In this document: one piece after another, positions 25,676-53,048 of the stretch
How positions within the stretch are numbered: position 1 is the stretch's first letter
Layout of the letters: each line of letters begins with the position of its first letter
Assembly (NCBI RefSeq): GCF_900103785.1
Contig: NZ_FNHE01000003.1
Location: 124,001-188,000 of the forward strand
DNA: 64,000 nucleotides
From: Geodermatophilus siccatus
GTDB lineage: Bacteria; Actinomycetota; Actinomycetes; Mycobacteriales; Geodermatophilaceae
Reading direction: 5' to 3'
Translations under genes and position numbers: made by a program
Notes under the pieces: model-generated
Told to the model about the DNA's origin: nothing
Databases searched by the model: none
Seen by the model: the letters and a program-made list of their open reading frames with translations, nothing else

Positions 25676-25683
25676 ACCGTACG

Positions 25684-29243: not shown

Positions 29244-30650
29244 GTGAACCCCGAGCAGATCCGGGCGGCGATCCGCGCTGCCCTCGCCCAGCGAGCCATC
29301 CACGAGCGGACGATCCGGCAGATCACCGGCGCGATCGGCGCCGGGATGCCCACCACCGCGCAGGCCGCGTCACTGCGCGCTGACCGGTCGGCGATCGTCG
29401 CGATCGACGCTGAACTCGACCAGCACCAGGCGTCGCTACAGGACGCCCAAGACGACCAGCAGCGGCACGCCCGCGCCGCCGAGATGCGCCGGCAAATGGG
29501 CGGCGCCCGCGTCACCGCCGAGCCGCGCACCTACGGCGAGCGGTCAGGGGAGTCCTTCGTCCGGGACGCGTTCACCTCCCGATTCCTCGGCGACACCCGC
29601 GCCGGTGATCGGCTCGCCCGCTCACAGCGGGAGGCCGCTGACAGCCTCGAGCAGCGCGCCGTCGGCACGTCCGGGTTCGCCGGGCTGGTGATCCCGCAGT
29701 ATCTCGTCGATGCCGCCGCGCTCGCCCTTCGGTCCGGCCGACCGATCGCGAACAGCGCCGCGAAGCTGCCGCTGCCCGAGCAGGGCATGAGCCTGATCGT
29801 GCCCAAGAGCACCACCGGCGCCGGGGTCGGCAGCCAGGCCACCGAGCACTCAGCGGTGCTGAACACCGACGAGGTGTGGGCCAACATCACCGTGCCGGTC
29901 GCAACAATCGCCGGGCAGCAAGTTCTGTCCCGGCAGTCGATTGAGCGCGGCAGCCCGCAGCTCGACGCCCTGGTGATTAGCGACCTGGCCGCCGCCTACG
30001 CGGCTGAGGTTGAGCGCCAGATCGTCAACGGCTCCGGTGCGTCGGGGCAGATGCTCGGCATCCTCAGCACCGCCGGCGTCGCCACCTCGACCGCGTTCGG
30101 CGCCGCCGTCACCGCGGCCGCGTTCATGTCGAAGGTCGCCGGGGCAATCGCGTCCATCGCCGCCGCAGGGTCTGGGATCGCTGCGACCTATATCGCCATG
30201 CACCCGCGGCGGTGGGCGTGGCTGCTGTCGCAGAACGACAGCACCGGCCGCCCCCTCGTCTCGCCGATCGCGAACGGGCCGACCAGCGCCGCCGCCTCAA
30301 CCGCCCCAGGCGCGTACGGCGGCGACGACGACCCGGTCGCCGGTATGACGATCGTCGGCTACCTGCACGGGCTGCCTGTGCTGACGTCGACCGCAATTCC
30401 AACGAACCTCGGCGGCGGGTCCACCGAGGACGTCGTGATCGTGTACGACAACCGGCAGGCGCTGCTGTGGGAGGACTCCGGCATGCCAAAGTTCCTCAAC
30501 TTCGAGCAGCCCTACGCCGCCAGCCTAGGCGTGCTGATCGTCGGCTACGGGTACGCCGGCTTCACCGCGGCCCGCTACCCAAGTGGGTTCGCCCAGGTCG
30601 GCGGCGCCGACAGCAGCGGGACAACCGGGTTGCAGGCTCCTGCGTTCTAA
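29244..30650 (+). CDS. HK97-type major capsid protein
   Basis: 468 residues from GTG 29244, preceded by CCAGGAGCC. The N-terminal 130 residues form a helical, coiled-coil scaffold-like region (DAELDQHQASLQDAQDDQQR). The HK97 shell fold then follows: TSGFAGLVIPQYLVDAAALA, TITVPVATIAGQQ-type strand (here NITVPVATIAGQQVLSRQS), and the E-loop/A-domain parts WAWLLSQNDSTGRPL and GMTIVGYLHGLPVLTST. An in-frame GTG at 29034 would add 70 Arg/Ala-rich residues. No protease gene is nearby, so scaffold removal, if any, would rely on a helper. This is the only structural gene in the element. Confidence 0.88.
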   Translation: MNPEQIRAAIRAALAQRAIHERTIRQITGAIGAGMPTTAQAASLRADRSAIVAIDAELDQHQASLQDAQDDQQRHARAAEMRRQMGGARVTAEPRTYGERSGESFVRDAFTSRFLGDTRAGDRLARSQREAADSLEQRAVGTSGFAGLVIPQYLVDAAALALRSGRPIANSAAKLPLPEQGMSLIVPKSTTGAGVGSQATEHSAVLNTDEVWANITVPVATIAGQQVLSRQSIERGSPQLDALVISDLAAAYAAEVERQIVNGSGASGQMLGILSTAGVATSTAFGAAVTAAAFMSKVAGAIASIAAAGSGIAATYIAMHPRRWAWLLSQNDSTGRPLVSPIANGPTSAAASTAPGAYGGDDDPVAGMTIVGYLHGLPVLTSTAIPTNLGGGSTEDVVIVYDNRQALLWEDSGMPKFLNFEQPYAASLGVLIVGYGYAGFTAARYPSGFAQVGGADSSGTTGLQAPAF

Positions 30651-34121: not shown

Positions 34122-34550
34122 TCATGGCTTCGACGCTCGCCCGGAGCGCGGCTGGCGGAAGGGGACGAGCACATCACCTTTTGCCCTCTGTAGTGCTTCT
34201 CGCAGCCTCTGATTCTCTAGCGCAAGCACCTGGATCTGCTGAGCCATAACGTTCATGCTTTCCACCGCTGCGTTATGCTGCTCGTTCCGTTCGCGGAGTT
34301 TCCGCTCCAACTCCGCCACTTTGTCTTTGGCCGCGGCCCGCGCCGGTTCCTCGATGGCCTTGGAAAACTCGGCCGCCTGAGCGAGGAAGGCGGCCTTGAG
34401 GTGACCGGAGCGGTGGACTGTAGATAGGCTAACTCCTGCTTCGTCCGCCCAGGCCGCGAGTGTCTTCTTGCCATTCTGGTTGGCGGTTCCAGAGAAGATG
34501 CGGTCATGTGCGGAAGCCAACGCTTCTGCCGCCGACCTACTGATCTGCAT
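34122..34550 (-). CDS. tnpC: TnpC-like accessory transposition protein
   Basis: 142 residues from ATG 34550, preceded by GAGGGTGAGGG; the start lies inside the end of the recombinase gene upstream. An N-terminal helix-turn-helix (TLAAWADEAGVSLSTVHRSG) and a C-terminal coiled coil (VAELERKLRERNEQHNAAVE, QIQVLALENQRLREALQRAK) match the layout of Tn554 TnpC and the small DUF6262-type proteins found after such recombinases. TnpC in Tn554 sets efficiency and orientation of insertion. Last gene of the recombination operon. Confidence 0.8.
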   Translation of the reverse strand: MQISRSAAEALASAHDRIFSGTANQNGKKTLAAWADEAGVSLSTVHRSGHLKAAFLAQAAEFSKAIEEPARAAAKDKVAELERKLRERNEQHNAAVESMNVMAQQIQVLALENQRLREALQRAKGDVLVPFRQPRSGRASKP

Positions 34551-36660
34551 CGCCCTCACCCTCGATCTTTGTGAGCACCGCTTGAGCCTCGCGGAGTTCG
34601 TTGTGCAGGATCGCCCGTTGCGGTGCTGATAGACCCTTTAGTTCGAGCATGACCATGGTGTCTGCTTCAATACGCCTCCAGGCCGGTGCATGGGCGCTAG
34701 TGATGCACGAGTTGGCGCAGCGCCCAGGTGTGCATCGAACGAGGACGGGGGCAGTTTCGTCATCGTGGCGGCAGAGTGCATTCGCCTCTTCGTAGTAGCA
34801 GGCGTTCAATGGACCTTCGTAGTAGTTGTGCGCGACGTTCGCGAGCATGGCTCTCTTTCGGCGCTCGTCGACCGGCGCGTAGCCGGGGAAGTCGCCAAGT
34901 TCTTCTCGTATGGCAGCCAGATCGGCGAAGAGTCGCTGATGGCCTCCGCGGCTTGGAATCACCCCGGCGATCATGTCGTCGTAGTGGTCCTCCATGTCCG
35001 CAAGGCGCGCAGCCGCCTCCTCGGCCTCGACCTCGGCGCGAAATCCCGATTCGCTGGTTCCGGCATAGCCTTGAAAGGTCGTCGCTCGCACGTGCTTGAA
35101 CTGGCGCTTACCGGCGACGAAGCCGAACGGTTGCTCGGAGATGAACCATGCAAGCGTGCGCCGAAACTGACTTGTGGTGAACCGCCAGGGTGCATCGCCA
35201 GGGCTGGGAACTGGGTCGTGCGGACGAGTGAGATTGAGGTGGTCGCGAAACTCGTTGAGCAGGTCGTTGATGTGCTTGCCCAGGATGTTCTGTCTCCGGT
35301 CTGGGAGGGTGAACAGAAGAGTCGCGCTGGGGTTGATCCGCTGAAGGATGTCCAGTGCCTTGCTGACCTCTTCTACGACTACCCACGTGGCCCTTTGGCC
35401 CGTACTAGCCCGTCCCTTGTAGACAGTGCTCTCGACCTTGTGTCTGATGGTGCCGTCAGCAAGGTCCTCGGTGAAATAGCATCCCGGCTCCATGGCCTGC
35501 ACTTCGCTGTCGCGCATGCCAGAGAGGAACGCGGTGACGACGTAGCAGGCCACGATTAAAAGTCGTCGCTCCTGGAAGGCGCTGATGCGGTCGAACCGAG
35601 CACGCCACGGCTGACCAGTTTCGGGGTCAATGGTGATGGGGGTGTCGAGCCCGCCAGGTTCAAGACCCAATCGGGCGGTGGCGTCGTTCAGCATCGCGGC
35701 GATGTAGGAGCGCCTGCCGACTCTGTTGTGAAGCCCCGCCAGGCCGAGACAGACAGCCGTGTTGAGTGTTCCTCCCTCGTCGGGCGTGGGGCGTCCTTTT
35801 GCGCGTGCAATCCGCATCGGCAGCATGGGCAGTCCGCGCCCCGCTAGTTGCCGGGCTTCCAGCCATCTGGCCAGCACGGCGATGGCCTCGTCCCGTGGGG
35901 GGTTGGCGTCCACCTCATCGAGGCGTCTGCACTCGTGCGTCACCGCCAGGATGTCCGGAGCGGCTGTCAGGACGTAGAAGAGCGCCCCGCGCAGGTAGGG
36001 CTCCATGACCTCCTTGGGGATACGCGGGGTCCTGTTCTCTTCCGGCTTGGGCTCCCCTACCGCAGCGCTTGGCGACAGGCCGTCCCAGGGGAAGACACTG
36101 AGCCGGTCATGGGTGAGCCAGTGGCCATGCTCGTAGATCCTCTTCAGCAGGGCGAGTCGATGACGGCGGATGAACACCGTCGCTGGCTGGTTCCTCGCTC
36201 CTAGGAGGTTGAGGAAATCGATCTGGTCCTGCTCAGTGAGGTCAGCCAACCGTAGGCTGCGTTGCTCCAGGAATGACAGGAGTAACCGCAGCCGCCCATG
36301 GTCGGTGTAGACCGAGACGATCGAGGGCAGCCGCCTGCCCTGCCGTTCTCGACGAACGAGCCGGGAATAGGTGAACTCCTTGGCGAGGAGCCGGTGATGC
36401 GGGTTCTCGATCTCGGTGAAGTCAATGAAGTAGTCGTGAGGGTAGTTGGTCCGGTGGGACGCTGGAGTCAGGTTCCAGTAGTCGTCGCCGAAGACCGGCA
36501 GGGGCGTGGCGTGGCCCTTGCGGAGAACGCGGCCAGCGAGCACATAGGCGTCGGGCTGGACATGAGCCGACTGCGGCGCAGCGCTAGGTTTCCATCCTCC
36601 ATAGACGAGCCGGAGCCCCGTCCAGTTCGAGGAGTCGTCAGCCACGGCGGGCTTCTGCAT
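34537..36660 (-). CDS. Tyrosine recombinase of the trio (third gene, TnpB-like)
   Basis: 707 residues. The catalytic domain is visible from about 375: VTAFLSGMRDSEVQAMEPGC (first Arg) and RFTTSQFRRTLAWFISEQPFGF in the His-x-x-Arg position (here Gln-x-x-Arg). A FKHVRATTFQGYAGTSES block holds the His and a Tyr. A C-terminal extension carries a cysteine-rich segment (CTPGRCANSCI) after CRHDDE, probably a zinc site. Its ATG overlaps the previous gene by 23 bases, and the tnpC start overlaps its end by 14. It should act with the two other recombinases on the ends of the element. Confidence 0.85.
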   Translation of the reverse strand: MQKPAVADDSSNWTGLRLVYGGWKPSAAPQSAHVQPDAYVLAGRVLRKGHATPLPVFGDDYWNLTPASHRTNYPHDYFIDFTEIENPHHRLLAKEFTYSRLVRRERQGRRLPSIVSVYTDHGRLRLLLSFLEQRSLRLADLTEQDQIDFLNLLGARNQPATVFIRRHRLALLKRIYEHGHWLTHDRLSVFPWDGLSPSAAVGEPKPEENRTPRIPKEVMEPYLRGALFYVLTAAPDILAVTHECRRLDEVDANPPRDEAIAVLARWLEARQLAGRGLPMLPMRIARAKGRPTPDEGGTLNTAVCLGLAGLHNRVGRRSYIAAMLNDATARLGLEPGGLDTPITIDPETGQPWRARFDRISAFQERRLLIVACYVVTAFLSGMRDSEVQAMEPGCYFTEDLADGTIRHKVESTVYKGRASTGQRATWVVVEEVSKALDILQRINPSATLLFTLPDRRQNILGKHINDLLNEFRDHLNLTRPHDPVPSPGDAPWRFTTSQFRRTLAWFISEQPFGFVAGKRQFKHVRATTFQGYAGTSESGFRAEVEAEEAAARLADMEDHYDDMIAGVIPSRGGHQRLFADLAAIREELGDFPGYAPVDERRKRAMLANVAHNYYEGPLNACYYEEANALCRHDDETAPVLVRCTPGRCANSCITSAHAPAWRRIEADTMVMLELKGLSAPQRAILHNELREAQAVLTKIEGEGDADQ

Positions 36661-38539
36661 CTGGGAGAAGGGGCGGCACGTGAAGCACGCTGGCGTCGGA
36701 CTCTGCTATCGCCTTTGCCTGAATGACGAGCGACTCGGGAAATGAAGGGATGATCTGCGTGACGGCGCGGCGGTAGGGCCTGCCGTAGGTGGCCTCCCAT
36801 TCTCGTTCGTTGAGGCGCTCGCGCTGGTGCTCGGCCATGCTCACGAAGGCCAAGACGGCGGGCAACTTGCCGCTGTGCACGACCGCGTTCCTGCATTCCC
36901 AGCAACCCCAGACGGCGGCTGGACAGGCGGTGCCTGCTGGAGCAAACGGGCTGTTGAAGAAGTCCTTGCAGTCCGCGACCCAGACGTTATGTCCGCCGCT
37001 CATCATTTCGGCGGCGACTTGCCTGCTCACTTCGAGCGCCGCGGCAGCATCTTCCGGGGCAGCACGTAACCGCGCTTCCTTCTCGACAGTGAGCACGGTG
37101 CACGAGTCCATAAGCATCTGGATGCCGTCGGCCACCGCCTGGTCGTGAGCAGCCTCCAGGGCCGGAACGTCGGCATAGTGGTTGACCGCGACCTCGACGC
37201 TGTGTCCTTGGACCCAGAGCGAGGGGTCGCCGCCCACGGCACGGTAATGGCTGGCCTTCCAGGTCTTCCGGAGCCTGCGCAATAGCAGGACCAGTGGGCG
37301 CCCGTCGTCGTCCCTGAGGCCATGTCGCTCGACAAAGCGCATCATCGCGTCGGCCTGGACGAGTTCGCCTGCCGCTCGTCGTTGGCGCTGCTTCTGGCCG
37401 AAACTACTGAACCTGGCTCGCCGCAGTGCCCCTCGGTCGTAGTAGATCCATAGGGCGTTGTGGTGCTCTTCGTCGGTGTTGGTCTCTTCCCAGTGCTTGC
37501 GGGCCGTGGCGGTTAGGCGTAACGCCGTCCGGATGATTCCGCCAGGAGTCCGAAGGCCGCCGTCCCGAACGCGCAAGGTGTTCCACGTATGACCGTGTCG
37601 ACGTCGCTTGAGGTAAGTGACCGTGACGTAGCCGCGCTCCGGGTTGGAGAGGCAGTCAGCCTTCAGGGTCTTGACGGATTCGATCTCCAGGCCGCATGCC
37701 AGCGAGAGCGCGACCCAGAGGGCCAGGAGGTCCTGCCCGGTCGGATAGACAAGTTGGTTGAGCGGTTGGAGGGAGTTGGTGTTGTGCCATCTGGCAGGGA
37801 CATGCGGTCGGAGCCCGGCCCAACCCAACACACCCCGCTCATGGATCAGCCACACCAAGTTGCTGCGGTTCTCGTACCCGTATTGAGCCGGGTCCTTGCC
37901 CTCCGCGAGTAGGGCCGCGCCCTCAACGGTGATCCGCTCAATCGCCGCCACGATGTCCCGTTGGGCTGCGGCGCGCAGCCGCTGGCCGACAGCCTCGGAG
38001 TAGGGATCGATGTGGCCGTCCTCACCGACTTCGCCCTCGGCGTTGTAGCGCAGCCGATACCTCATCTCGTCGGTCAACGCCTCCGGCCGTAGGCGGCCTA
38101 CTTCCCGAAGAAGCGTGACCACCTGGCTCGTTCGGACGTACGGGTTCTTTGCGGACGACGAGGACGCCTCCTCGCGTAGGTGGTTCTCGAATCGCGCTAG
38201 ATGAGCCGGAGTCAGGTCGCGGGTCGACATCGACGCGTTGTCGGGCTGGTCGTGCGCTAGCCATGCGTCGAAGGTGCGAATCCCGACCGCGTACTGAGCG
38301 ATAGAGCCGGGGGTCTTGAGTCGTTGGGCCACCCTTGTCAAGGAGTCCAGCGCCTCGACCAGTTGGCGGACCAGCACCAGACAGAGAGCGTCCGTGAAGT
38401 GGATCACCACATCCGCTCGACCAGGAAGCCGGACCGTGAGGACCAGTAATGCCAGCGCCCTCGGGGCCGACTCGGGCTCCTCAGCGACGGCCGGACTGAA
38501 TCGAACCGTGCGCCGACCGCGCTCGACTGCCCTCCTCAC
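36638..38539 (-). CDS. Tyrosine recombinase of the trio (second gene)
   Basis: 633 residues; GTG start overlaps the previous stop as GTGA. A core-binding domain (SIAQYAVGIRTFDAWLAHDQ) is followed by a catalytic domain with LALWVALSLACGLEIESVKT and LRRLRKTWKASHYRAVGG, then the GHSVEVAVNHYADV block with His and the nucleophile Tyr. The usual Arg in the first box is not obvious and the His-x-x-Arg box reads Lys-x-x-x-x-x-x-Arg, so it is a divergent member as is typical for TnpB-type partners. A cysteine pair motif (CPAAVWGCWECRNAVV) near the end may bind zinc. Confidence 0.82.
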   Translation of the reverse strand: MRRAVERGRRTVRFSPAVAEEPESAPRALALLVLTVRLPGRADVVIHFTDALCLVLVRQLVEALDSLTRVAQRLKTPGSIAQYAVGIRTFDAWLAHDQPDNASMSTRDLTPAHLARFENHLREEASSSSAKNPYVRTSQVVTLLREVGRLRPEALTDEMRYRLRYNAEGEVGEDGHIDPYSEAVGQRLRAAAQRDIVAAIERITVEGAALLAEGKDPAQYGYENRSNLVWLIHERGVLGWAGLRPHVPARWHNTNSLQPLNQLVYPTGQDLLALWVALSLACGLEIESVKTLKADCLSNPERGYVTVTYLKRRRHGHTWNTLRVRDGGLRTPGGIIRTALRLTATARKHWEETNTDEEHHNALWIYYDRGALRRARFSSFGQKQRQRRAAGELVQADAMMRFVERHGLRDDDGRPLVLLLRRLRKTWKASHYRAVGGDPSLWVQGHSVEVAVNHYADVPALEAAHDQAVADGIQMLMDSCTVLTVEKEARLRAAPEDAAAALEVSRQVAAEMMSGGHNVWVADCKDFFNSPFAPAGTACPAAVWGCWECRNAVVHSGKLPAVLAFVSMAEHQRERLNEREWEATYGRPYRRAVTQIIPSFPESLVIQAKAIAESDASVLHVPPLLPDAEARRG

Positions 38540-39981
38540 GCGGCCTCACTCTCGGCCACTAAGGATTCCCACTGTTCGACTGCGTCGTCGAGGTACTCCT
38601 GGGCCTCAGCCAACGTGTCGAGGTAGCGCAAGGTAGTGGTCGGGTGTCGGTGGCCAAGCATGCTCTGCAACTTCTTCAACGGCTCGGTCAGGTGTCGGGC
38701 ATACGCGCTACGCCTTCCCTCCCGAGCCAGCGCCGCGTGGGCCTCTACCAGTCGGCTGAGCATGTGAACCGCGAACGTGTGCCGCAAGGTATGAGGCGTT
38801 GCTCCGATGTCTAGCCCGAGTCGCTGACATCGAGCGCTCGCCGACTGGAAGATGCCCTCCCACGTGTCGAGCGCCATCGGACCACCGTCCTCGCCGAGCC
38901 AGAGGGCCAGCGGTTCTACCGGCTCGCCTGTGTCGGAGACGAGTAGCAGTCGGAGACGTTCGTCCACATCAAGGTCCCGCAACTCGTAGACCTTGAGCCC
39001 TCCGTCGCCACTCCTCATCTCAACGCGGCCAGCCCCCACGCGTTTACACGCCAGCCAATCGTCCGTCAGGTAGATCCCGCGCCCACGCCCGACCGCGATC
39101 GCATTCCCACGCTCAATGGAGAGGTACTCATGCAGCCCGCGATAGATGCGCCACGGTAGCCGGATGCGACGCCCCCGCCTGCGCTTGGCGACGGCCGAAG
39201 CGAGCCGGAAAACCTGCGTGCGCTGGACCATGCCAGGAATCTTCGGTGGCAAGTCCGCCGTTGTGAGGGATCCGCCTTCACGTAGCCGCATGCCGGTCAT
39301 CGCTAGCGTCTGACACATCAGAGCGTTCCGCTCGGCGTTTCTCAAACGGGACCGAGGGTCATCGGCGCCACTGAGCAACTTCCCCTTCATTCCAACGTCT
39401 CTGAAGTGGCGGTACTCGGGAACAGTCAGATACCTGGCCCCCTCGACGTCACCGTTCAATTCATAGGCGCTATTGACCTGTCGGGACGCAAATCCTCCCG
39501 ACGCCAGCCGATAGCGGACAGTTCTGTAGTGGAAGGGCAAGTCGGCGGTCCAGCCCTGTCGCCTCCCGTAGTTGTAGAGGTTGTCCAGCGCTGCAATGCC
39601 GCGGTCCCAGGTCGTCGAAGAGATGGCCTTGCCGTCGGGAGGCTTCACCAGGCGCCGCGCCGCGTAGTAGGCGACAAGGTCATCCTCGTTCGCCTCCCAG
39701 ACGCCCTTGCCTCGCGCTTCTCGGAGGAAGCGCGCCCACGTCAGAACGTCCCTGCCGTATGCCTTCCACGTGTTCGCCGCTGGCGCTCCGCTCGTGGGCA
39801 GTGAGCGCGTCCACTGGCTGAGCCGGAGGTCGTAGGAGCCGTCATCCCCGATGAAGAAGGGCATCCCCGGTGGGACTAGGAGCGCATCGGTCAGGACGGA
39901 CGCAAGCCGCTTGCCTTCGACCGGATCACCCAGCGTCGGGGACGCTCGGAGCACGTCGGGGTCGGTGTGAAACATCTCCAT
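38536..39981 (-). CDS. tnpA: Tyrosine recombinase of the trio (first gene, TnpA-like)
   Basis: 481 residues from ATG 39981. This member has the full canonical set: LAMTGMRLREGGSLTTADL (Arg I), TPHTLRHTFAVHMLSRLV (His-x-x-Arg), LGHRHPTTTLRYLDTL (His and Tyr nucleophile). An N-terminal SAM-like core-binding domain reads NTWKAYGRDVLTWARFLREA. It leads the four-gene operon, so its level sets the recombination machinery. It is likely the catalytically dominant partner. Confidence 0.92.
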   Translation of the reverse strand: MEMFHTDPDVLRASPTLGDPVEGKRLASVLTDALLVPPGMPFFIGDDGSYDLRLSQWTRSLPTSGAPAANTWKAYGRDVLTWARFLREARGKGVWEANEDDLVAYYAARRLVKPPDGKAISSTTWDRGIAALDNLYNYGRRQGWTADLPFHYRTVRYRLASGGFASRQVNSAYELNGDVEGARYLTVPEYRHFRDVGMKGKLLSGADDPRSRLRNAERNALMCQTLAMTGMRLREGGSLTTADLPPKIPGMVQRTQVFRLASAVAKRRRGRRIRLPWRIYRGLHEYLSIERGNAIAVGRGRGIYLTDDWLACKRVGAGRVEMRSGDGGLKVYELRDLDVDERLRLLLVSDTGEPVEPLALWLGEDGGPMALDTWEGIFQSASARCQRLGLDIGATPHTLRHTFAVHMLSRLVEAHAALAREGRRSAYARHLTEPLKKLQSMLGHRHPTTTLRYLDTLAEAQEYLDDAVEQWESLVAESEAA

Positions 39982-41704: not shown

Positions 41705-43573
41705 ATGGTGCGCGTCTCGCAACTTAAGGTTCACGACTTCCGAGGGTGGTCGTCCCTCGACCTGAAGCCTCGCGGTCATGTCGTCCTGGCTGGCGTTCCT
41801 CGGTCGGGACGCAGTGACATCATCGCGGCCCTCCGCTGTGTACTGGATGCGGGAAGCACACGCGCCCAGCCTCGTCTCAGCGACCTCCACCAGTGGGGCT
41901 CCAGTGGGGCCGCTCCCGCCTCGGCCTTGCATCAAGCCACGGAGCCGGACGCATCCGACATCGCTGAGTCGGAACTTCAGAGTGCTGCCGCTAACGCGGT
42001 CCCTGAGGAGACCGTCTACCGCGCTGATGAGTGCCTCGTCGAGGTGACGCTGATCGACCTCGACCCGGAGGTGCAGCAACTGTTCGACGGGTTCTTGGAG
42101 CCCCAGGACGAGCAAGGGCTGGCGGCTACTGGGGACCCGGCGCCGAGCGCGAGGTTCTGTGTCCGTCTCGCGTATCGCTTGACGTATGACGCTGTCACCG
42201 ATGCTCTTGATCACTTCGTCTACTACCCGGTCAGGAGCAATCCTGCATCGGGGCAGTTCGTTCGAGTTCCTGCGGCCGTCCGTCGAGCACTTCCTGTGGT
42301 GATTTTGCAGCCTGGCCAGCCGCTTCAGTTGCGAGCCGAGGGCGCGCTTCGTCGGATCCTGTCGGATCGCGACCCCGCGGAGACGCTGGCCGCGTTTGAG
42401 CGTCTGGCCGACTCGGTTGCCGTCGCGACTTCCATGCTTGGAAGCGAGCCGACCGTCACGGAGGCCGTAGACGCAGTCCTAGATGCGGCGGCACTTGGCG
42501 GCCGACTTGGAGACTTCAAGACGACGTCGGAGCATGTCAGTTTCGCCGCGGAGGACGGCAGTTTGAGCGCCCTTCTGCGGGCGGTCCAGCCAGCGCTCCG
42601 GCTGGATGGTGCTGGCACCCTTCCGCTGATAAGCCACGGAAGCACGGTCGCTGCCATTATTTCGGCCGCTGAAGCCGTCCTTCAGGCACAGGTTCCGGGC
42701 GCGGTCGTTCTGTCTGATGACTTCGGAGATCAACTGGATGCTCCGACAGCAGAGCACCTGGCCGGGATCATTCGTTCCAAGGCTGGACAGGCGTGGCTCT
42801 CGACAAGGCGCCCTGACGTGGTCCGGGCCTTCTTACCTGCCGAATTGGTGCGCCTGACGCGGCATGACGGTGCACGAAAGCACCACCAACTGGGGCGTCC
42901 CCGTGACAAGAAGGACCTCATTGCTCTCCGCCAACTCCATACGCAACTGTTGGCCGCGGTCACCTCGCCGAGCGTTGCTATAACAGAGGGGCCTCACGAC
43001 GTGGCCGCGTTCGGCTTTGTCGACCGGCACCGGAAGGCCCAGCGCCGCATGTCTGCTCATGGGGTTCGCCTAGTTGCTGCGGGCATGGGCGGAGATGGAG
43101 GCACTGCACAGATTCCCAAAGTTGCCCAACTGGCTCATGAGTTGGGATTCCACGTCGTTGCCGTAGTGGATGGCGACAAGTCGTCGACACAGACAGACGC
43201 AGAACTGAAGGCAATCGAGGCAGCCTGCGATGCGGTAGTTCGCTTGCCTGACGGCGTCGCGATCGAAGCGGCCATCGTGATGGGATTCGATTCGTTAGCG
43301 CTTCGTGCAGCGAGTTCGACGCTGCCACTCTATGGCTTCACAGATCCCTTGGCTGCGGTAACGAATGACGCCGAGGCGCTCACGGCGATCATCAAGGCGC
43401 TGCACAAGTACGGCTACCACGAGCAGTTCTTGTCAGCCTTGGTCGCTGAGACACGCCTCCTCCCCACACTGGCCTGCCGTGCTCTGGACGCGATCGCCCA
43501 GGGGAGTAATCCCTCACATTCGGGCGCGAAGACCCTGCTCGTCTCCGCGCTAGAGACGACGGACAGCCAGTGA
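41705..43573 (+). CDS. gajA: Gabija-type GajA: OLD-family ATPase with TOPRIM nuclease
   Basis: 622 residues. The N-terminal ABC-type ATPase starts SQLKVHDFRGWSSLDLKPRG with a P-loop GVPRSGRS at 30-37. The usual Lys is Arg (GRS, not GKS). A signature-like PLISHGSTVAAI and Walker B VVLSDDFGDQLDAPT follow. From about residue 420 a TOPRIM domain has the catalytic Glu in VAITEGPHDVAAFG and Asp-x-Asp in VVAVVDGDKSS. This is the class 2 OLD layout, paired with the UvrD-like gene that overlaps it by four bases, which defines Gabija. GajA nicks phage DNA when nucleotides are depleted. The size (578 in the best-studied case) fits. The P-loop change could alter ATP sensing. Confidence 0.82.
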   Translation: MVRVSQLKVHDFRGWSSLDLKPRGHVVLAGVPRSGRSDIIAALRCVLDAGSTRAQPRLSDLHQWGSSGAAPASALHQATEPDASDIAESELQSAAANAVPEETVYRADECLVEVTLIDLDPEVQQLFDGFLEPQDEQGLAATGDPAPSARFCVRLAYRLTYDAVTDALDHFVYYPVRSNPASGQFVRVPAAVRRALPVVILQPGQPLQLRAEGALRRILSDRDPAETLAAFERLADSVAVATSMLGSEPTVTEAVDAVLDAAALGGRLGDFKTTSEHVSFAAEDGSLSALLRAVQPALRLDGAGTLPLISHGSTVAAIISAAEAVLQAQVPGAVVLSDDFGDQLDAPTAEHLAGIIRSKAGQAWLSTRRPDVVRAFLPAELVRLTRHDGARKHHQLGRPRDKKDLIALRQLHTQLLAAVTSPSVAITEGPHDVAAFGFVDRHRKAQRRMSAHGVRLVAAGMGGDGGTAQIPKVAQLAHELGFHVVAVVDGDKSSTQTDAELKAIEAACDAVVRLPDGVAIEAAIVMGFDSLALRAASSTLPLYGFTDPLAAVTNDAEALTAIIKALHKYGYHEQFLSALVAETRLLPTLACRALDAIAQGSNPSHSGAKTLLVSALETTDSQ

Positions 43574-45222
43574 CGTACACGCCCACCCCTGAGCAGATCA
43601 AGGTCATCAACGCCACGGACCCTGTGCTAGTCGTGTTGGGTGGAGCCGGTACGGGGAAGACCACTACGGCAGCCGTTGCGGCTAGGAAGCGCATCGAGGA
43701 TGCAGAGTCGGAACGCCTCCGGGTGAGGCGGGATGCTCTGCTCAGTGGCAAGCGAGCGAAACAACGACCTCCGGCGCGAGCCCTCTTCTTGTCGTTCTCG
43801 CGCACCGCTGTCGCTCAGGTGATCGATCGGGCCAGCAGTGTCATCGGCCCCACGCTCCAGCGCCTCGACGTGGCGACCTTTGACGGATTCGCGTGGAGGG
43901 TGATCAACGACTTCGGCGCCCACTACGGATACCCGCCGCCGCAGTCGGTCGTCTCCGCCGCCAGCGCCAAGGTGCCCGGCGCCCCGCAGGGGCTCACCTA
44001 CCAGCAACTGATCCCTGCGGCGCGCAAACTGCTGGCGCTGTCAAACGTTGGCGCTCACTACGACGACCGCTACTGCCTTGTCATCTGCGACGAGTTTCAG
44101 GACACGAACGACCTGGAATGGGAGTTCATGCAGGAGATCGCCCCCGCAGCGCCACGGATGCTGCTCGGCGATGCCAACCAATGCATCTACGCTGACATGA
44201 AGAGGATTGATCCGGAGGTCCGTATCGCTGACGCGTGCGCGTTGCCGGGCGCCCAACGTGTTGACCTGTCAGCCGAGAGTCATCGGGACCCAAGCCAGGT
44301 CCTGCCCGCCGCCGCCGCTGCTGCTCTGCGCCGGAAGTTCTCACACCCATACGTCGCGACGGCGGCATCCTCAGGGCGTCTTCGAGTGACCCGGAAGAGG
44401 AGCCCGAAGGGTTATGCAGAGATAGTTGACCTGACCGCCCGAGCACGGCACGAAGGCAGAACGGTCAACATCTTCACGCACACGAACAATGCAACGGCCG
44501 ACCTATCCGACGCCCTCACCGACGCAGACGTGCGGCACGAGCAAGTCGGCTTCGGCGAGGCGCATGGCGAGGCGCTTTCGGCCCAACTAGAACTCCTGCG
44601 GTACGCCTGGCGCCAAGAGGCCGCCCCACGCCGAGCGCTAGCCGTCTACATGACCGCCAACTATCGCGGCAAGACCCTGCCTGACCTTGCGCAGCAGGTG
44701 CTTGACCGAACCAATCCAGCCCTAGAACGGCAGATCGAAGACCTCGCGAACAACCTCGTCACCGCCGGGGACCTAAGAGACGTAGAAGCCCTTGCCCAGC
44801 ACGTCCGAGAGGCATACGCCCATGTCGGTATGGAGCGCGGACAAGAGACCTGGACTCAAGCGTCGGCCCAGTTTCGCAGTGCCCTCAACCTGCTGAACGT
44901 CAGCACCGGCAGCATCGCTGCCGTCGAGGCTCAACTCGGACAGGCGCATGACGACACCTTGCTCAACTGCCATCGCCAGGCCGCCCGGCAAGTCCAGGTG
45001 ATGAACCTTCATCAGACCAAAGGCCGGGAAGCGGACGTTACTCTGCTCCTACTTCAGGAGGACGAATGGCATGGCCGGGAGAGGGAGCCCTTCCCCAAGG
45101 GTTCACGTCTCTTGTACGTGGTGATGACAAGGGCCCGGCAAGAAGCACACATCGTATGCGGGACAGAAGTCCACGCACTGTGGCGACCGCTCGTGGAAGC
45201 AGTGGAGAAGTCTCAGCCTTGA
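43570..45222 (+). CDS. gajB: Gabija-type GajB: UvrD/Rep-like helicase
   Basis: 550 residues; GTG start overlaps the gajA-like stop as GTGA. Superfamily 1A motifs are in order: Q motif YTPTPEQIKVI, Walker A VLGGAGTGKTTTAA, motif Ia LFLSFSRTAVAQ, Walker B LVICDEFQDTNDLEW (about 170), motif III MLLGDANQCIY, motif V MNLHQTKGREADVTL and motif VI LLYVVMTRARQEAHIV (about 517). It lacks the nuclease domain of AddA/RecB. In Gabija, GajB uses the ends made by GajA and its ATPase contributes to abortive defence. Confidence 0.85.
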   Translation: MTYTPTPEQIKVINATDPVLVVLGGAGTGKTTTAAVAARKRIEDAESERLRVRRDALLSGKRAKQRPPARALFLSFSRTAVAQVIDRASSVIGPTLQRLDVATFDGFAWRVINDFGAHYGYPPPQSVVSAASAKVPGAPQGLTYQQLIPAARKLLALSNVGAHYDDRYCLVICDEFQDTNDLEWEFMQEIAPAAPRMLLGDANQCIYADMKRIDPEVRIADACALPGAQRVDLSAESHRDPSQVLPAAAAAALRRKFSHPYVATAASSGRLRVTRKRSPKGYAEIVDLTARARHEGRTVNIFTHTNNATADLSDALTDADVRHEQVGFGEAHGEALSAQLELLRYAWRQEAAPRRALAVYMTANYRGKTLPDLAQQVLDRTNPALERQIEDLANNLVTAGDLRDVEALAQHVREAYAHVGMERGQETWTQASAQFRSALNLLNVSTGSIAAVEAQLGQAHDDTLLNCHRQAARQVQVMNLHQTKGREADVTLLLLQEDEWHGREREPFPKGSRLLYVVMTRARQEAHIVCGTEVHALWRPLVEAVEKSQP

Positions 45223-45902: not shown

Positions 45903-47450
45903 GTGACGGAAGAGGGTGCCCGTGCGCTTGCGATGGCGCTGATACCGGAGTCTCCCGCGCCGCTGAGCCTTGCGGAACTGGAGAACCACCTTGCCGGGGC
46001 AGCGGACCTGTTGCGCGGGACTATCGACCAATCCGACTTTAAGGCATACATCTTCCCGTTGATGTTCTTCAAGCGAATCAGCGATGTGTACCTGGAGGAG
46101 TACCGCGACGCCCTGGCCGACTCCGGGGGCGACCATGAGTTTGCGGCGTTCGCGGAGAATCATCGGTTTGCGATACCCGAAGGCTGCCTGTGGGCGGACG
46201 TCCGCTCGCGGACAGAGAATGTTGGCCAGGCGTTGGTGACCTCGTTCCGAGGTATTGAGAAGGCCAACCCTCTGACGCTCTATGGCATCTTCGGCAACGC
46301 CTCTTGGACGAACAAGGACAAACTGTCCGATGCGCGACTTCTTGACCTCATTGAACATTTCTCAACGAGGCCGCTAACCAATGCGGCTGTATCGCCGGAC
46401 GTGTTCGGACAGGCGTACGAGTACCTTATCAAGCGTTTCGCCGACCAGTCCAATAAGAAGGCTGGGGAGTACTACACCCCACGTTCGATCGTGCGCTTGC
46501 TCGTAGACATCCTTGCCCCACAGGAGGGCGAGACGGTCTACGACCCTGCCTGCGGCACCGGCGGCATGCTCATTGAGGTCATTGAGCACGTGAAGCGCAA
46601 CGGTGGCCGCCCTCAGTTGCTCTGGGGCAAGTTGTTCGGCCAGGAGAAGGTTCTGGCCACCTCCGGCATCGCCCGGATGAACATGCTCTTGCACGGCGTC
46701 GAGGACTTCGACATCGTCCGCGGGGACACACTCCGCGATCCGGCCTTCTTTGATCGAGACCACCTGGCCCAGTTTGACTGCGTCATCGCCAACCCGCCGT
46801 TCTCCCTCAAGAACTGGGGCGAGTCCGAGTGGGCGGCGGATCGTTGGGGCCGCAACGCGCTCGGTGGCCTGCCCCCGAAGGGCTACGCAGACTGGGCCTG
46901 GGTGCAGCACATGACCGCCTCGGCGACCTCCCGTACCGGCCGTGTCGCCGTTGTTCTTCCTCAGGGCGCGCTGTTCCGGCACGGGGCGGAGGCCCGGATC
47001 CGCAGACACTTCATAGAGGCCGACAAGATTGAGGCCGTCATCGGCCTGGCGCCGAACCTGTTCTACGGAACCGGGTTAGCCGCCTGTGTGCTGGTCCTGC
47101 GCCAGCACAAGCCCGCCACTACGAAGGACAAGGTCCTCTTCCTTAACGGAGAGATGCTCTTCAACAGAGGGCGTAATCAGAACACGCTCGACCCTGAGCA
47201 TGCCGAGACGCTCCTGAAGGCATACCAAGCCTTCGTCGACGAGCCCGGCTTCGCTCATGTCGCGTCCCTGTCAGACGTCGCGGCTAACGACTTCAACCTC
47301 AACATCCCGCTCTACGTTGACCCCACAGACGACCGTGACGGATCAACTCTTGAGGAATCTCTTGCTGGCCTGGAACAAGCGCAGCGATTGGCTTCGGCCG
47401 CCCGTGCCGACCTAGAGGCCGAACTCGTCAAGTGGGGATTGGGTACATGA
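45903..47450 (+). CDS. hsdM: Type I restriction-modification methylase subunit HsdM (first copy)
   Basis: 515 residues from GTG 45903 (ATG 45933 is an alternative). The HsdM N-terminal helical domain (LENHLAGAADLLRGTIDQSD, IFPLMFFKRISDVYLEEY) is followed by the adenine-N6 methylase: SAM motif DPACGTGGM at about 213 and catalytic NPPF in CVIANPPFSLKNWG at about 297. YYTPRSIVRLLVDIL is also typical. It is followed without a gap by a second, clearly different hsdM (ATGA overlap). It modifies the recognition site chosen by HsdS so that HsdR does not cut host DNA. Confidence 0.93.
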   Translation: MTEEGARALAMALIPESPAPLSLAELENHLAGAADLLRGTIDQSDFKAYIFPLMFFKRISDVYLEEYRDALADSGGDHEFAAFAENHRFAIPEGCLWADVRSRTENVGQALVTSFRGIEKANPLTLYGIFGNASWTNKDKLSDARLLDLIEHFSTRPLTNAAVSPDVFGQAYEYLIKRFADQSNKKAGEYYTPRSIVRLLVDILAPQEGETVYDPACGTGGMLIEVIEHVKRNGGRPQLLWGKLFGQEKVLATSGIARMNMLLHGVEDFDIVRGDTLRDPAFFDRDHLAQFDCVIANPPFSLKNWGESEWAADRWGRNALGGLPPKGYADWAWVQHMTASATSRTGRVAVVLPQGALFRHGAEARIRRHFIEADKIEAVIGLAPNLFYGTGLAACVLVLRQHKPATTKDKVLFLNGEMLFNRGRNQNTLDPEHAETLLKAYQAFVDEPGFAHVASLSDVAANDFNLNIPLYVDPTDDRDGSTLEESLAGLEQAQRLASAARADLEAELVKWGLGT

Positions 47451-48949
47451 GCGCCCCGATACAGCGCATCACACAGCAGGAACTGGAGTCCTACCTTTGG
47501 GGCGCCGCCGTACTCCTTCGTGGCCTTATCGACGCAGGTGACTACAAGCAGTTCATCTTCCCCCTCGTCTTCCTCAAGCGCCTGTCCGACGTTTATGACG
47601 AGGAGCACGCCGCTGCACTTGAGGTCTATGGCGACGAAGAACTGGCAGACCTGCCTGAGAATCACCGCTTCGCCATCCCCGAGGGCGCCCACTGGAAAGA
47701 CATCCGTGCGACCACCCGCAACAAGGGCGCCACGCTGCTTAAGGCAATGCGCGCCATCGAGGCCGCTAACCCTGACAGCCTATACGGCGTCTTCGGGGAC
47801 GGTGACTGGGGGAACAAGGACCTCCTGCCGGACTCCACACTCAACGACCTCGTCGAGCACTTCTCCAAGAAGACGCTGTTGGTGGCAAATCTCCCAGAAG
47901 ATGAACTTGGGCAAGGGTACGAGTACCTCATTAAGAAGTTCGCTGATGACTCCGGTCACACCGCGCAGGAGTTCTATACCAACCGCACACTCGTTCACTT
48001 GATGACTCTCATGCTCCAGCCGGAACCGGGAGAGTCCATTTACGACCCCACCTGCGGGACCGGCGGCATGCTTATCTCGACCGCCGCCGAGGTGAAGCGG
48101 CAGGGCAAAGAGTGGCGCAACCTCCGCCTATACGGCCAGGAACTCAACTACGGCACCTCGGCTATCGCCCGCATGAACCTCTTCTTGCACGGGGTTGTTG
48201 ACGGTCACATCGCCCACGGCGACGTCCTCGCAGCGCCGGCCTTCCACGACGCGCACGGACAACTGCGCACCTTCGACGTCGTCCTTGCGAACCCGCCGTA
48301 CTCCATCAAGGCATGGAACCGTGCGTCGTTCACGAAGGACCCCTACGGGCGCAATGCATGGGGTGTTCCGCCACAAGGAACGGCGGACTATGCCTTCATC
48401 CAGCACATCGCCAAGAGCCTAAACCGGAGAACTGGTCGCGCGGCGGTCTTGCTGCCTCATGGTGTCCTGACCCGGTTCGCAGAGGCCCAGTTCCGGCGCG
48501 CCATGGTGGAATCCGATCTGGTCGAATGCGTGATCGGGTTGGCGCCAGGGCTGTTCTACAACTCGGGGATGGAAGCCATCCTACTGATTCTGCGGGCAGA
48601 CAAGCCAGCCGATCGACGCGGCAAGGTTCTCTTCATCAACGCTAGAACACAGTACGTGCGCGAGCAGGCCCAGTCTTTCCTCCGCACCAGCCATCAACAG
48701 ATGATCTTGACGGCCTATCAGGCGTTCGCGGACCAAGGTGGTTTCGCGCACGTCGCCACGCTTGACGAGATTGCCGAGAAGGACCACAGCCTCGCGATCC
48801 CGCTCTACGTCAGCGAGTCAGCGGCCCCGAGCGTCAACGAGCAGGTCTTGGTCAACGATGCCGTCGCGTTGTGGCGGCAGGCGGTTGCAGAGTCCGACTC
48901 GGCGATCAACCGGGTGCTCGGCATGCGTCGAGAGGGGATGCGTCAGTGA
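47447..48949 (+). CDS. hsdM: Type I restriction-modification methylase subunit HsdM (second copy)
   Basis: 500 residues; ATG in an ATGA overlap with the first hsdM. Same architecture: LESYLWGAAVLLRGLIDAGD, IFPLVFLKRLSDVYDEEH, SAM motif DPTCGTGGM at about 199 and NPPY in VVLANPPYSIKAWN at about 282. Shared blocks with copy 1 (ENHRFAIPEG; LFYGTG/LFYNSG; GFAHVA near the end) show an old duplication, but the two differ throughout and both keep all catalytic motifs. Standard type I systems have one hsdM. A heterodimeric M1-M2-S core is a plausible reading. Confidence 0.93.
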   Translation: MSAPIQRITQQELESYLWGAAVLLRGLIDAGDYKQFIFPLVFLKRLSDVYDEEHAAALEVYGDEELADLPENHRFAIPEGAHWKDIRATTRNKGATLLKAMRAIEAANPDSLYGVFGDGDWGNKDLLPDSTLNDLVEHFSKKTLLVANLPEDELGQGYEYLIKKFADDSGHTAQEFYTNRTLVHLMTLMLQPEPGESIYDPTCGTGGMLISTAAEVKRQGKEWRNLRLYGQELNYGTSAIARMNLFLHGVVDGHIAHGDVLAAPAFHDAHGQLRTFDVVLANPPYSIKAWNRASFTKDPYGRNAWGVPPQGTADYAFIQHIAKSLNRRTGRAAVLLPHGVLTRFAEAQFRRAMVESDLVECVIGLAPGLFYNSGMEAILLILRADKPADRRGKVLFINARTQYVREQAQSFLRTSHQQMILTAYQAFADQGGFAHVATLDEIAEKDHSLAIPLYVSESAAPSVNEQVLVNDAVALWRQAVAESDSAINRVLGMRREGMRQ

Positions 48950-50121
48950 GCCTGAACCTTGACAAGAGCACGTGGAAGCGCGTCCGCCTCGGCGATGTGA
49001 TTGCCCGCTCCAGGCAGCAGGTCGATCCGCAGGCCGGAACTGTCGATCGCTACGTCGCCGGAGGGCACTTCGACTCTGGATCGCCGATGGTCGAACGTTG
49101 GGGCGACGTGAACGACGGGCAGATGGGATCCACCTTCCGTTACGTCTTCCATCCGGGGCAAGTCCTCTTCATCTCTGCGAGACCGTATCTGCGCAAAGTA
49201 GCCATCCCGCAGTTCGGCGGCGTCGTAGCAGACAAGACCTATGTACTGGACGCCATCTCCAAGAACGGACTCCTACAAGACTTCCTTCCCTTCCTTCTGC
49301 TGTCTGACCGCTTCTGCGAGTTTGCGATGGCAGAAGCGACGGGGTCCATGAACCCGCGGCTTCTCTGGGGCGCGATGCAACGGTTTGAGTTTGACCTGCC
49401 CCCAGTCGAGGAGCAGGAACGGATTGCGCGTCTCCTGTGGTCTTGCACGCGTAGTGTCGCGGCCTCCGAGCGGGTACTCGGAAGTATGGAGCAGGTGGCC
49501 CGGTCTTGGCGTTCCTCCGTCTTCTCCGCTGGTCCTCAGGACCGTCTCGACAAGTTCGTCGAAGTAGCACTCGGCAGGCAGCGCGCCCCCCAGCATGAAC
49601 AAGGCGATCACATGCTGCCGTACGTGCGAGCGGCCAACATCAAGGATGGGCGCATCGACATGACGGATTTGAAGGTCATGAACTTCACGCCAGCCGAGCA
49701 GGAGAAGTTTCGCCTGGAGGCGGGGGACGTGCTCGTTACTGAGGGATGCGGATCCCTGAAGGAACTGGGAAACTCCGCTGTCTGGCAACGTGAGGGCGAT
49801 CGAGAGGTCTTCTTTCAGAAGACTCTCATCCGTCTTCGATCTATTGAGGGTCGCAGTAATGCGACTTTGGTCCGCGAGTGGGCTCGCTGGGCCCAAGAGG
49901 CTGGACAGTTCGCGCGAATAGCCAAGGGAACCGGGATTCTCCACCTCACGGCAGTCAGGTGCGCTACTCTGCCGTTTCGGCTCCTAACAGAAACGGAGCG
50001 CGACCAAATCTCCAAGGAGGCGGACGACCTTGAGTCGGCCTTGGCCGTCCTGCATGAGGCAGTGTCTGTGGAGCGACGGATGATGTCGAGTCTTATGGAG
50101 AGTCTTTGGAGCGTCGCGTGA
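48946..50121 (+). CDS. hsdS: Type I specificity subunit HsdS
   Basis: 391 residues from GTG 48946 in a GTGA overlap. Two target-recognition halves each end in a conserved helix. TRD1 runs about 5-170 with the LPPVEEQERIARLLWSCTRS spacer. TRD2 runs about 205-350 with VRAANIKDGRIDMTDLK and ending LPFRLLTETERDQISKEADD. TRD1 residues such as ISARPYLRKVAIPQFGGVVA are typical. The DNA sequence recognised cannot be deduced. A single hsdS for two hsdM. Confidence 0.9.
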   Translation: MSLNLDKSTWKRVRLGDVIARSRQQVDPQAGTVDRYVAGGHFDSGSPMVERWGDVNDGQMGSTFRYVFHPGQVLFISARPYLRKVAIPQFGGVVADKTYVLDAISKNGLLQDFLPFLLLSDRFCEFAMAEATGSMNPRLLWGAMQRFEFDLPPVEEQERIARLLWSCTRSVAASERVLGSMEQVARSWRSSVFSAGPQDRLDKFVEVALGRQRAPQHEQGDHMLPYVRAANIKDGRIDMTDLKVMNFTPAEQEKFRLEAGDVLVTEGCGSLKELGNSAVWQREGDREVFFQKTLIRLRSIEGRSNATLVREWARWAQEAGQFARIAKGTGILHLTAVRCATLPFRLLTETERDQISKEADDLESALAVLHEAVSVERRMMSSLMESLWSVA

Positions 50122-53048
50122 CGTTCAACGAGGCGAACTCGGTTCGAGACTTCGTACGCGATCTCGTTGGGTCGGTAGACGTGCAGTTCATTCCCGGAAG
50201 AGAACTCCCTCGGACGACGGACAGCGTCCTTCTAGAGGCGCAGGTGAAGGCGGCCCTGATCCGGCTCAATCCGGAGGTCGAATCGGAACCGAGCCGGGCT
50301 GACGAAGTCCTGCACCGGCTGCGGGCCATCATCCTGTCCGCGCGGCAGGGAAGCCTTCTTGCGGCGAATGAGGAGTTTGCGGCCTGGCTGAACGGCGATC
50401 GGTCGATGCCGTTCGGGCCCGGCGGAGCGCATACGACGGTGCGACTGATCGACTTCGACAACCCCCAGGCGTCGGCGAATAAGTGGATGGTGTCCACGGA
50501 AGTCACCTTCACGAGCGGTCGCATCGAGCGCCGCTTCGACCTGGTCCTGTGGTGCAATGGCCTGCCTGTCGTCGTGGGTGAGGCGAAGTCCCCGGTTCGG
50601 CCCGCTTACTCCTGGTTCGACGCGGCTGCCCAAATCCACGACGACTACGAGAAGAACGTGCCGTCGTTCTTCGTGCCGAATGTCCTGTCCTTCGCTACGG
50701 AGGGCAAGGACTTCCGGTTCGGCTCGGTCGGGATGCCGGTCGGGATGTGGGGACCATGGCGCAAGGAACCTGATGGCAGCGCACCGGTGCCGGTGGGCCT
50801 GGCGGCCGTCGAGGAGGCCATCAGAGGAGTGCTGTTCCCGGCGACGATCCTGGACTTCCTCCGATTCTTCACGGCGTTCGCCACGGATAAAAAGCACCGC
50901 AAGATCAAGGTCATCGCTCGATTCCAGCAGTTCCAGGGCGCCAACCTGATGGTCGAGCGCGTTCTCAACGGCCGGATCAAGAAGGGTCTAATCTGGCACT
51001 TTCAAGGCTCGGGCAAGTCGCTGCTCATGGTCTTCGCCGCCCAGAAGTTGCGCGCGATGGCCCGGCTCGCCAACCCGACTGTGCTTATCGTCGTGGACCG
51101 CATCGACCTCGACACCCAGATCACGGGGACCTTCACAGCGGCGGACGTGCCCAACCTCGTGTCATCCGACAGCCGCGCTGAACTCCAGCAACTGCTCCGT
51201 GAGGGCGCTCGCAAGGTCATCATCACGACCATCCACAAGTTCTCGGAGGCGCCCGGCGTCCTCGACGACCGTCACAACATCATCGCGATGGTCGACGAGG
51301 CGCACCGCACCCAGGAGGGCGACCTCGGTCGGAAGATGCGCGAAGCGCTTCCGAACGCCTTCTTGTTCGGTCTCACCGGCACCCCGATCAACAAGCGGGA
51401 CCGCAACACCTTCTGGGCGTTCGGGGCTGAAGAAGACAAGGGTGGCTACCTGTCCCGATACACCTACCAGGACTCCATCCGCGACGGCGCCACGCTGCCC
51501 CTGCACTTCGAGCCCCGCCTGAGCGAGATCACCATCGATCAAGAGGGCATCGACGATGCCTTCAACGAACTCGCCACCCGCCACGACTTGAGCGAGGCGG
51601 AGAAGACGGCCCTCTCGCAGAAGGCAGCGTCTCTGGAGACGTTGATCAAGTCTCAGGACCGGGTCCAGAAGGTCGCCGCCGACATTGCTGAACACTTCAC
51701 GAGCAAGGTCGCGCCCAATGGCTTCAAGGGGCAGGTCGTCGTCTACGACAAGGCCGCCTGCGTCGCCTACAAGGAGGCACTCGACGGCCTCCTAGGGGCG
51801 GACGCCTCGGCTGTGGTGATGAGCATTGACGCACGGGACCCGCAGGTTTGGAAGGACTGCTTCGCGCTCGACAAGGACGCGGAAGCGAAGTTGCTGGCCC
51901 GCTTCAACGATCCGGCCGATCCGCTCCAGGTCATCATCGTGACCGCCAAACTGCTGACCGGCTTCGACGCCCCAATTCTCCAAGCCCAGTACCTCGACAA
52001 ACCTCTCCGCGACCACACGCTCCTCCAGGCGATCACCCGGACCAACCGGACGTACGCCGAAAAGGGCAAAACCCACGGCCTGGTCATCGACTACCTCGGC
52101 ATCTTCGACGATGTCGCGCAGGCACTCCTCTTTGACGACAAGAGCGTCCAGCGGGTCATCACCAACATCGCTGAGTTGCGGAACCAACTGCCCGTAGCGA
52201 TCGCGACAGCGTTGTCGTTCTTCCCCGGCGTGGATCGAACGGTGAGCGGCTATGAAGGGCTCATCCAGGCCCAAGCAGCGCTCGCGGACGACGCCGCCAA
52301 GGACGCCTTCGCCCTTGCGTACAGCATCGTTGGGCAGTTGTGGGAGGCACTCAGTCCCGACCCGATCCTCAGTGATCACGAGGCGAACTACCGATGGCTC
52401 ACCGACGTGTACGAATCGGTCAAGCCGACCGACCTCACCGGACGCCTCGTCTGGCACTCACTGGGTGCGAAGACCCTCGGTCTGATCAACGAGCACGTCA
52501 CCGTCGAGGTACCGCGCACCGATCTAGAGACGATCATCCTCGACGCGCAGGTCATCGAGGACCTCTCCTCCGGCAAGCAGCGGGAGGTCAAGGAGGAACT
52601 GGAGCGGCAGATCACCGCTCGCATCGCCAAGCACATCAACAATCCGAAGTTCGTGGAACTGGGCCAGCGGCTCAACGCGCTTCGCGAGAAGTACAGCCAC
52701 GGGCAGCAGGCCAGCCTGGAGTTCTTGAAGGAACTGTTTGCTCTTGCTCGCGACACCGTGGCTGCCGAGAAGGAGGTCGCCGAGGTGCCCCGCGAGGAGC
52801 GCGGCAGGGCGGCCCTCACCGAACTGTTCGAGTCCCTGAAGGACGCCGACACCCCTGTCATGGTGGAGCGTGTCGTGAACGATGTAGATCAGGTGGTGAA
52901 GTCTGTCCGGTTCGATGGCTGGCAGAACACCTCTGAAGGCGATCGACTGGTGCAGCAGGCGCTGCGCAAGACCCTCTACGTCAAGTACAAGATCCGCGAC
53001 AACGATGTGTTCGAGCGAGCGCTCGGCTACATCCGTGAGTACTACTGA
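50118..53048 (+). CDS. hsdR: Type I restriction subunit HsdR
   Basis: 976 residues from GTG 50118 in a GTGA overlap with hsdS (a TTG four codons upstream is possible). The HSDR_N nuclease has Asp in FDLVLWCNGLP and Glu-x-Lys in VVVGEAKSP (about 152-154). The translocase has Walker A HFQGSGKSLLM (about 297), DEAH in MVDEAHRTQEGD (about 393), LTGTPINKRDRN, and RecA2 motifs TAKLLTGFDAPI and LLQAITRTNRTY. A helical C-terminal domain for complex assembly follows. Complete and uninterrupted. Last gene of the cargo, 80 bases before the right inverted repeat. Confidence 0.94.
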   Translation: MTFNEANSVRDFVRDLVGSVDVQFIPGRELPRTTDSVLLEAQVKAALIRLNPEVESEPSRADEVLHRLRAIILSARQGSLLAANEEFAAWLNGDRSMPFGPGGAHTTVRLIDFDNPQASANKWMVSTEVTFTSGRIERRFDLVLWCNGLPVVVGEAKSPVRPAYSWFDAAAQIHDDYEKNVPSFFVPNVLSFATEGKDFRFGSVGMPVGMWGPWRKEPDGSAPVPVGLAAVEEAIRGVLFPATILDFLRFFTAFATDKKHRKIKVIARFQQFQGANLMVERVLNGRIKKGLIWHFQGSGKSLLMVFAAQKLRAMARLANPTVLIVVDRIDLDTQITGTFTAADVPNLVSSDSRAELQQLLREGARKVIITTIHKFSEAPGVLDDRHNIIAMVDEAHRTQEGDLGRKMREALPNAFLFGLTGTPINKRDRNTFWAFGAEEDKGGYLSRYTYQDSIRDGATLPLHFEPRLSEITIDQEGIDDAFNELATRHDLSEAEKTALSQKAASLETLIKSQDRVQKVAADIAEHFTSKVAPNGFKGQVVVYDKAACVAYKEALDGLLGADASAVVMSIDARDPQVWKDCFALDKDAEAKLLARFNDPADPLQVIIVTAKLLTGFDAPILQAQYLDKPLRDHTLLQAITRTNRTYAEKGKTHGLVIDYLGIFDDVAQALLFDDKSVQRVITNIAELRNQLPVAIATALSFFPGVDRTVSGYEGLIQAQAALADDAAKDAFALAYSIVGQLWEALSPDPILSDHEANYRWLTDVYESVKPTDLTGRLVWHSLGAKTLGLINEHVTVEVPRTDLETIILDAQVIEDLSSGKQREVKEELERQITARIAKHINNPKFVELGQRLNALREKYSHGQQASLEFLKELFALARDTVAAEKEVAEVPREERGRAALTELFESLKDADTPVMVERVVNDVDQVVKSVRFDGWQNTSEGDRLVQQALRKTLYVKYKIRDNDVFERALGYIREYY

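Follow-up and report, generated by a model that had tools for sequence, protein, structure and literature searches.

A type I restriction–modification operon with two different hsdM genes in Geodermatophilus siccatus is a probable m6A/m4C system of the PacII class

Operon organization and genomic setting

The window analysed here, a 64,000-nucleotide stretch of the Geodermatophilus siccatus genome, contains a type I restriction–modification (R-M) operon in which two different hsdM genes precede a single hsdS and a single hsdR, all on the forward strand. hsdM1 (45903..47450) starts with GTG, ends with TGA and encodes a 515-residue NPPF-type subunit (M1), a predicted N6-adenine (m6A) methyltransferase, while hsdM2 (47447..48949) starts with ATG and encodes a 500-residue NPPY-type subunit (M2), a predicted N4-cytosine (m4C) methyltransferase. 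These are followed by hsdS (48946..50121; GTG start), which encodes the single specificity subunit (S; 391 residues, Methylase_S), and by hsdR (50118..53048), which encodes the single restriction and translocation subunit (TIGR00348, E = 5.6e-142, with HSDR_N and SWI2_SNF2 domains). The four genes overlap tightly, with four bases shared at each of the three junctions (ATGA between the two hsdM genes, GTGA between hsdM2 and hsdS, and GTGA between hsdS and hsdR), as expected of a translationally coupled operon. The start of hsdR is most likely the GTG at 50118, as judged from its overlap with hsdS, with an upstream TTG at 50106 as a possible alternative.

Both M subunits are full length and carry the HsdM_N (PF12161; E = 4e-20 in M1 and 3e-22 in M2) and N6_Mtase (PF02384; E = 4e-99 and 1e-86, respectively) domains. 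The SAM motif I (DPACGTGG in M1 and DPTCGTGG in M2) and the catalytic motif IV (NPPF in M1 and NPPY in M2) are intact in both. At only 48% identity to one another, M1 and M2 are old paralogues, which excludes that the pair is an assembly error or arose from a recent duplication. The first-pass annotation of this locus had described two overlapping hsdM genes, each with the N-terminal HsdM domain, a SAM motif and NPPF or NPPY, differing throughout and followed by one hsdS and one hsdR, and our analysis bears out each of these points. Among the findings that it had named as speaking against its reading were a second hsdS elsewhere for one M and a broken catalytic site in one M. Neither of these was encountered: the genome (5.2 Mb, 36 contigs) holds five N6_Mtase matches and two hsdS (PF01420) matches, the other hsdS lies on this contig at a distance of about 330 kb and is paired there with an hsdM of its own, leaving no spare S genome-wide for either M, and no broken active site was seen in M1 or M2.

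A 27.5-kb element (25669-53188) interrupts cpaF/tadA (T2SSE) and carries the R-M operon as its last cargo. The left piece of the split gene ends at about 25668 and the right piece starts at about 53189, and the junction lacks about 191 bp of the gene compared with congeners, in many of which cpaF/tadA is one open frame. A large serine recombinase gene (25612-27057) lies at the left end of the element, and a search for direct repeats at the element ends found none. In several congeners (G403, G399, G401 and G408) cpaF/tadA is also split, elsewhere along its length (at about codons 90 and 160), and it looks like an insertion hotspot in the genus. Inside the element lies an HK97-type phage capsid gene (29034-30650; PF05065, E = 2e-20); a scan of a few open reading frames yielded no further phage structural gene, which might suggest a satellite or a remnant. 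Three consecutive overlapping genes on the reverse strand (34537-39981), of which one encodes a tyrosine recombinase (PF00589) and the other two have no Pfam match, form a row that recalls recombinase-in-trio elements. Just upstream of the R-M operon, the element also carries a Gabija-like pair (41705-45222), consisting of a GajA-like protein (E = 8e-20) without a Pfam match and a GajB-like UvrD-type helicase (E = 5e-43).

Homology to PacII and phylogeny of the M subunits

Classical type I enzymes such as EcoKI and EcoR124I contain two copies of one M and place m6A on both strands. The present operon shares with them the HsdM, HsdS and HsdR folds and the operon logic, but instead of a single hsdM supplying both M subunits it encodes a diverged pair of Ms alongside a single S. 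Having two distinct M genes next to one S and one R gene in the same operon is characteristic of the class represented by PacII, a type I R-M system of Pseudomonas alcaligenes (structures 7vru and 7vs4; PMC9613975). For the m6A/m4C type I subgroup to which PacII belongs, that study refers to an earlier description (reference 12 in PMC9613975). In PacII, M1 makes m6A and M2 makes m4C, with target recognition domain (TRD) 1 of S delivering cytosine to M2 and TRD2 delivering adenine to M1 (PMC9613975). The first-pass annotation had overlooked this described and structurally solved class (PMC9613975), as well as the different bases expected of the two Ms, m6A for NPPF and m4C for NPPY.

Sequence and structural comparisons matched each of the window's M and S subunits to its own PacII counterpart. 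The best PDB match of M1 is PacII M1 (7vru_A, E = 1.1e-163), ahead of PacII M2, and that of M2 is PacII M2 (7vru_B, E = 2.9e-163), ahead of PacII M1. In support of this pairing, M1 is 54.7% identical to PacII M1 and 46.5% to PacII M2, while M2 is 53.0% identical to PacII M2 and 43.1% to PacII M1. PacII S ranks first in the PDB sequence search with S, and the AlphaFold2 model of S (pLDDT 92) has PacII S as its best structural match (7vs4_C, Z = 34.3), the next-best S subunits scoring Z of about 25. Each subunit is orthologous to that of PacII and nearly all functional residues are kept, although the sequences have diverged, with identities to PacII of about 53-55% for the Ms and 20% for S.

For the phylogeny, the M proteins of 80 named genomes were combined with those of the window's phylum and of PacII. 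Two trees, a quick one of 187 sequences and a more careful one of 70 M proteins made with IQ-TREE, agree. In the latter, M1 (support 94/85) and M2 (100/100) form sister clades on a joint branch (100/96) that excludes 24 single-M HsdMs of the same phylum. PacII M1 and the window's M1 fall in the M1 clade, PacII M2 and the window's M2 in the M2 clade, and, as read from these sequences, a single duplication gave rise to M1 and M2. Members of the clades come from Actinomycetota, Pseudomonadota, Thermodesulfobacteriota, Myxococcota, Cyanobacteriota, Planctomycetota, Spirochaetota, Bacillota and two archaeal phyla. The M1-M2-S-R order of the window recurs in other Actinomycetota tandem-M loci, such as those of Cellulomonas massiliensis, Micromonospora musae, [Mycobacterium] fortunisiensis and Actinokineospora fastidiosa, whose Ms are 71-77% identical to those of the window.

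Catalytic pockets and the M1 arginine

The pocket motifs reported for the class are NPPF with AGEF in M1 and NPPY with AAEF in M2 (PMC9613975). Here, M1 combines NPPF with AGEY, and M2 combines NPPY with AQEF and F373. The AGEY and AQEF pockets count against the class assignment, though both variants are common in their clades (AGEY in 23 of 75 M1s and AQEF in 36 of 85 M2s); NPPF is found in all 75 M1s and NPPY in all 85 M2s. Among the functional sites of PacII, M1 keeps D25, E170, R252, N276, F279, S280, R336, T367 and R401, and M2 keeps R29, D33, D36, K38, K167, K168 and H175. Unlike PacII, M2 has Leu and Gln in place of R130 and R410, respectively, as roughly one quarter to one third of M2s also lack these arginines.

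A further difference concerns Arg29, which is stated to be conserved in M2 but not in M1 and is invoked to account for the adenine being kept out of the M1 pocket (PMC9613975). The window's M1 does have an arginine at this place, at the position of PacII M1 Thr21, which aligns with M2 R29. An arginine occupies the column in 73 of the 74 M1s in which it is filled, with PacII M1 as the exception; the absence of Arg29 from M1 is therefore not defining for the class as sampled, a count drawn from relatives of the window's M2 and not from close PacII relatives. A search for PacII-like M1s closer than about 55% found none above 60% identity on plasmids and only relatives at about 40% on viral contigs. 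Either the published contrast reflects close PacII relatives, or the arginine works from both sides.

The specificity subunit

S is laid out as TRD1 (residues ~9-155) and TRD2 (~196-348), with long helices at 154-193 and 349-388, and by homology to PacII TRD1 would face M2 and TRD2 would face M1. We compared the two domains across tandem-M loci by taking one S per locus, splitting it into N- and C-terminal halves and matching all against all. TRD1 halves were related in 2082 of 2346 pairs (88.7%), TRD2 halves in 231 of 2346 (9.8%) and TRD1 with TRD2 in 4.2%, while 23 control S proteins of single-M loci gave 12.6%, 9.9% and 7.6%, respectively; the percentages are approximate, given how few control proteins there are and that the halves were delimited by fixed offsets from the C-terminus. 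The contrast between TRD1 and TRD2 is internally controlled, since both halves come from the same S genes. TRD1 thus forms one family and TRD2 is diverse, whereas the two positions behave alike in single-M loci, which means that the two arms are not interchangeable. This pattern fits a cytosine-side domain that is nearly fixed and an adenine-side domain that is freely exchanged.

The window's TRD1 belongs to the common family, being related to 64 of the 68 other TRD1s, and by family and fold S presents a predicted cytosine-type TRD1 and a predicted adenine-type TRD2 on a PacII-like scaffold. Compared with most Actinomycetota tandem-M loci, the window has a different TRD2, and it shares TRD1 at 74% with Actinokineospora fastidiosa. 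Of the PacII TRD1 residues that contact CCC (R75, R76 and H94), only R76 is kept; R75, which is present in 64 of 69 S proteins, is replaced by Ala, and H94 by Lys. With these two contacts lost, the m4C half-site of the window's enzyme is probably not CCC.

These substitutions bear on an alternative in which the M1M2S heteromer forms, yet both Ms make m6A, with an adenine in each half-site. Without the R75 and H94 contacts, the enzyme may read another half-site than PacII and conceivably even act on another base. Moreover, PacII M2 can methylate adenine as well when the substrate is switched (PMC9613975), so that NPPY alone is no proof of m4C. Nevertheless, M2 retains every m4C pocket residue, NPPY is invariant in its clade and the window's TRD1 lies within the single TRD1 family of the class, and we consider this alternative very improbable.

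Gene linkage in related loci

The comparison with other tandem-hsdM loci that the first-pass annotation had proposed was carried out in the 80 genomes, which represent Actinomycetota, Pseudomonadota, Bacillota, Planctomycetota, Cyanobacteriota and archaea. M1 was found upstream of M2 in 76 of the 80 loci, either whole, or partial at a contig end or frameshifted, and in the remaining four the contig stops just before M2; the collection was seeded with M2-like sequences, and the obligate linkage is thus that of M2 to M1 and not of M1-like proteins to M2. In 12 of the 80 loci (L055, L058, L060, L061, L063, L065, L066, L070, L075, L080, L086 and L106), M2 and S form a single open reading frame and M1 is separate, with the domains verified in two of them. 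A fused M2-S chain sets the ratio of M2 to S at one to one, with the second arm free for M1, which is direct genomic evidence for the M1M2S composition.

The fusions also argue against two homotypic enzymes, M1-M1-S and M2-M2-S, that share one S for redundancy or switching, a reading that the intact state and near-equal length of both Ms and the presence of one S would allow. In PacII, M2 does not bind S unless M1 is present, and M1 with S alone yields only M1-S (PMC9613975). The separate evolution of TRD1 and TRD2 points in the same direction, and homotypic enzymes are left with hardly any likelihood. The reading that one M is regulatory or a sensor of phage modification, as the first-pass annotation had suggested, or else that it is dead weight, draws on nothing beyond the duplication and deserves next to no credence, given the intact SAM and catalytic motifs of both Ms, the catalytic residues that are invariant across the clades and the obligate M1-M2 pairing over very large phylogenetic distances.

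Two further features were observed in Bacillota members. There, M1 forms the C-terminal part of a fusion protein that starts with an ADP-ribosylglycohydrolase domain (PF03747, E of about 1e-30 to 1e-32), which is ARH3-like and keeps the TDDS and GGDSDT motifs (L102:3585-5999 and L113:3567-5999, and also L107 and L115 as judged by length only); a literature search for papers linking ADP-ribosylglycohydrolase and M domains found none on such a fusion. In addition, the Bacillota tandem-M loci L107, L112, L113, L115 and L102 contain two hsdS-like frames, some of them partial, which is suggestive of S-gene switching.

Discussion

Here, we consider it very likely, with a probability of about 0.93, that the operon encodes a complete, non-canonical m6A/m4C type I R-M system of the PacII class, consisting of an M1-M2-S methyltransferase and HsdR. 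As judged from its sequence, the arrangement is real and complete and looks functional, and it would represent a new member of a known, uncommon class and not a new type. The earlier description of the m6A/m4C type I subgroup, reference 12 of the PacII structural study, is presumably Morgan et al. 2016 (NAR). Among the possibilities raised by the first-pass annotation was also an M1-M2-S heteromer with one half-site assigned to each M, and it now gains support from PacII homology, the tree, the M2-S fusions and the asymmetry between TRD1 and TRD2.

By analogy with PacII, the single S would bind M1 with one arm and M2 with the other, forming the M1-M2-S methyltransferase. TRD1 would present the cytosine of its half-site to M2 for m4C modification, while TRD2 would present M1 with an adenine that lies in the other half-site and on the opposite strand, for m6A modification. 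Two copies of HsdR are expected to join this complex (R2M1M2S), upon which unmodified foreign DNA would be translocated and cut.

A more specific version of this PacII-class reading, which we put forward only tentatively and hold to be somewhat less probable than its opposite, is that the window's enzyme is a variant of the class with a non-CCC m4C half-site and a gating arginine in both Ms. The loss of the Arg75 and His94 contacts in TRD1 would account for the changed half-site, and, with an arginine in M1 as well as in M2, blocking of the target base could be mutual between the two active sites, and not confined to M2 acting on M1.

The puzzle of two hsdM genes with one hsdS in this operon is answered by a known mechanism, that of the PacII class. 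The arginine to which asymmetry had been ascribed on the grounds that it is specific to M2 is present in nearly all sampled M1s, and this part of the mechanism needs re-examination. Beyond G. siccatus, the m6A/m4C class is broadly distributed among bacteria and archaea, where M1 and M2 travel together.
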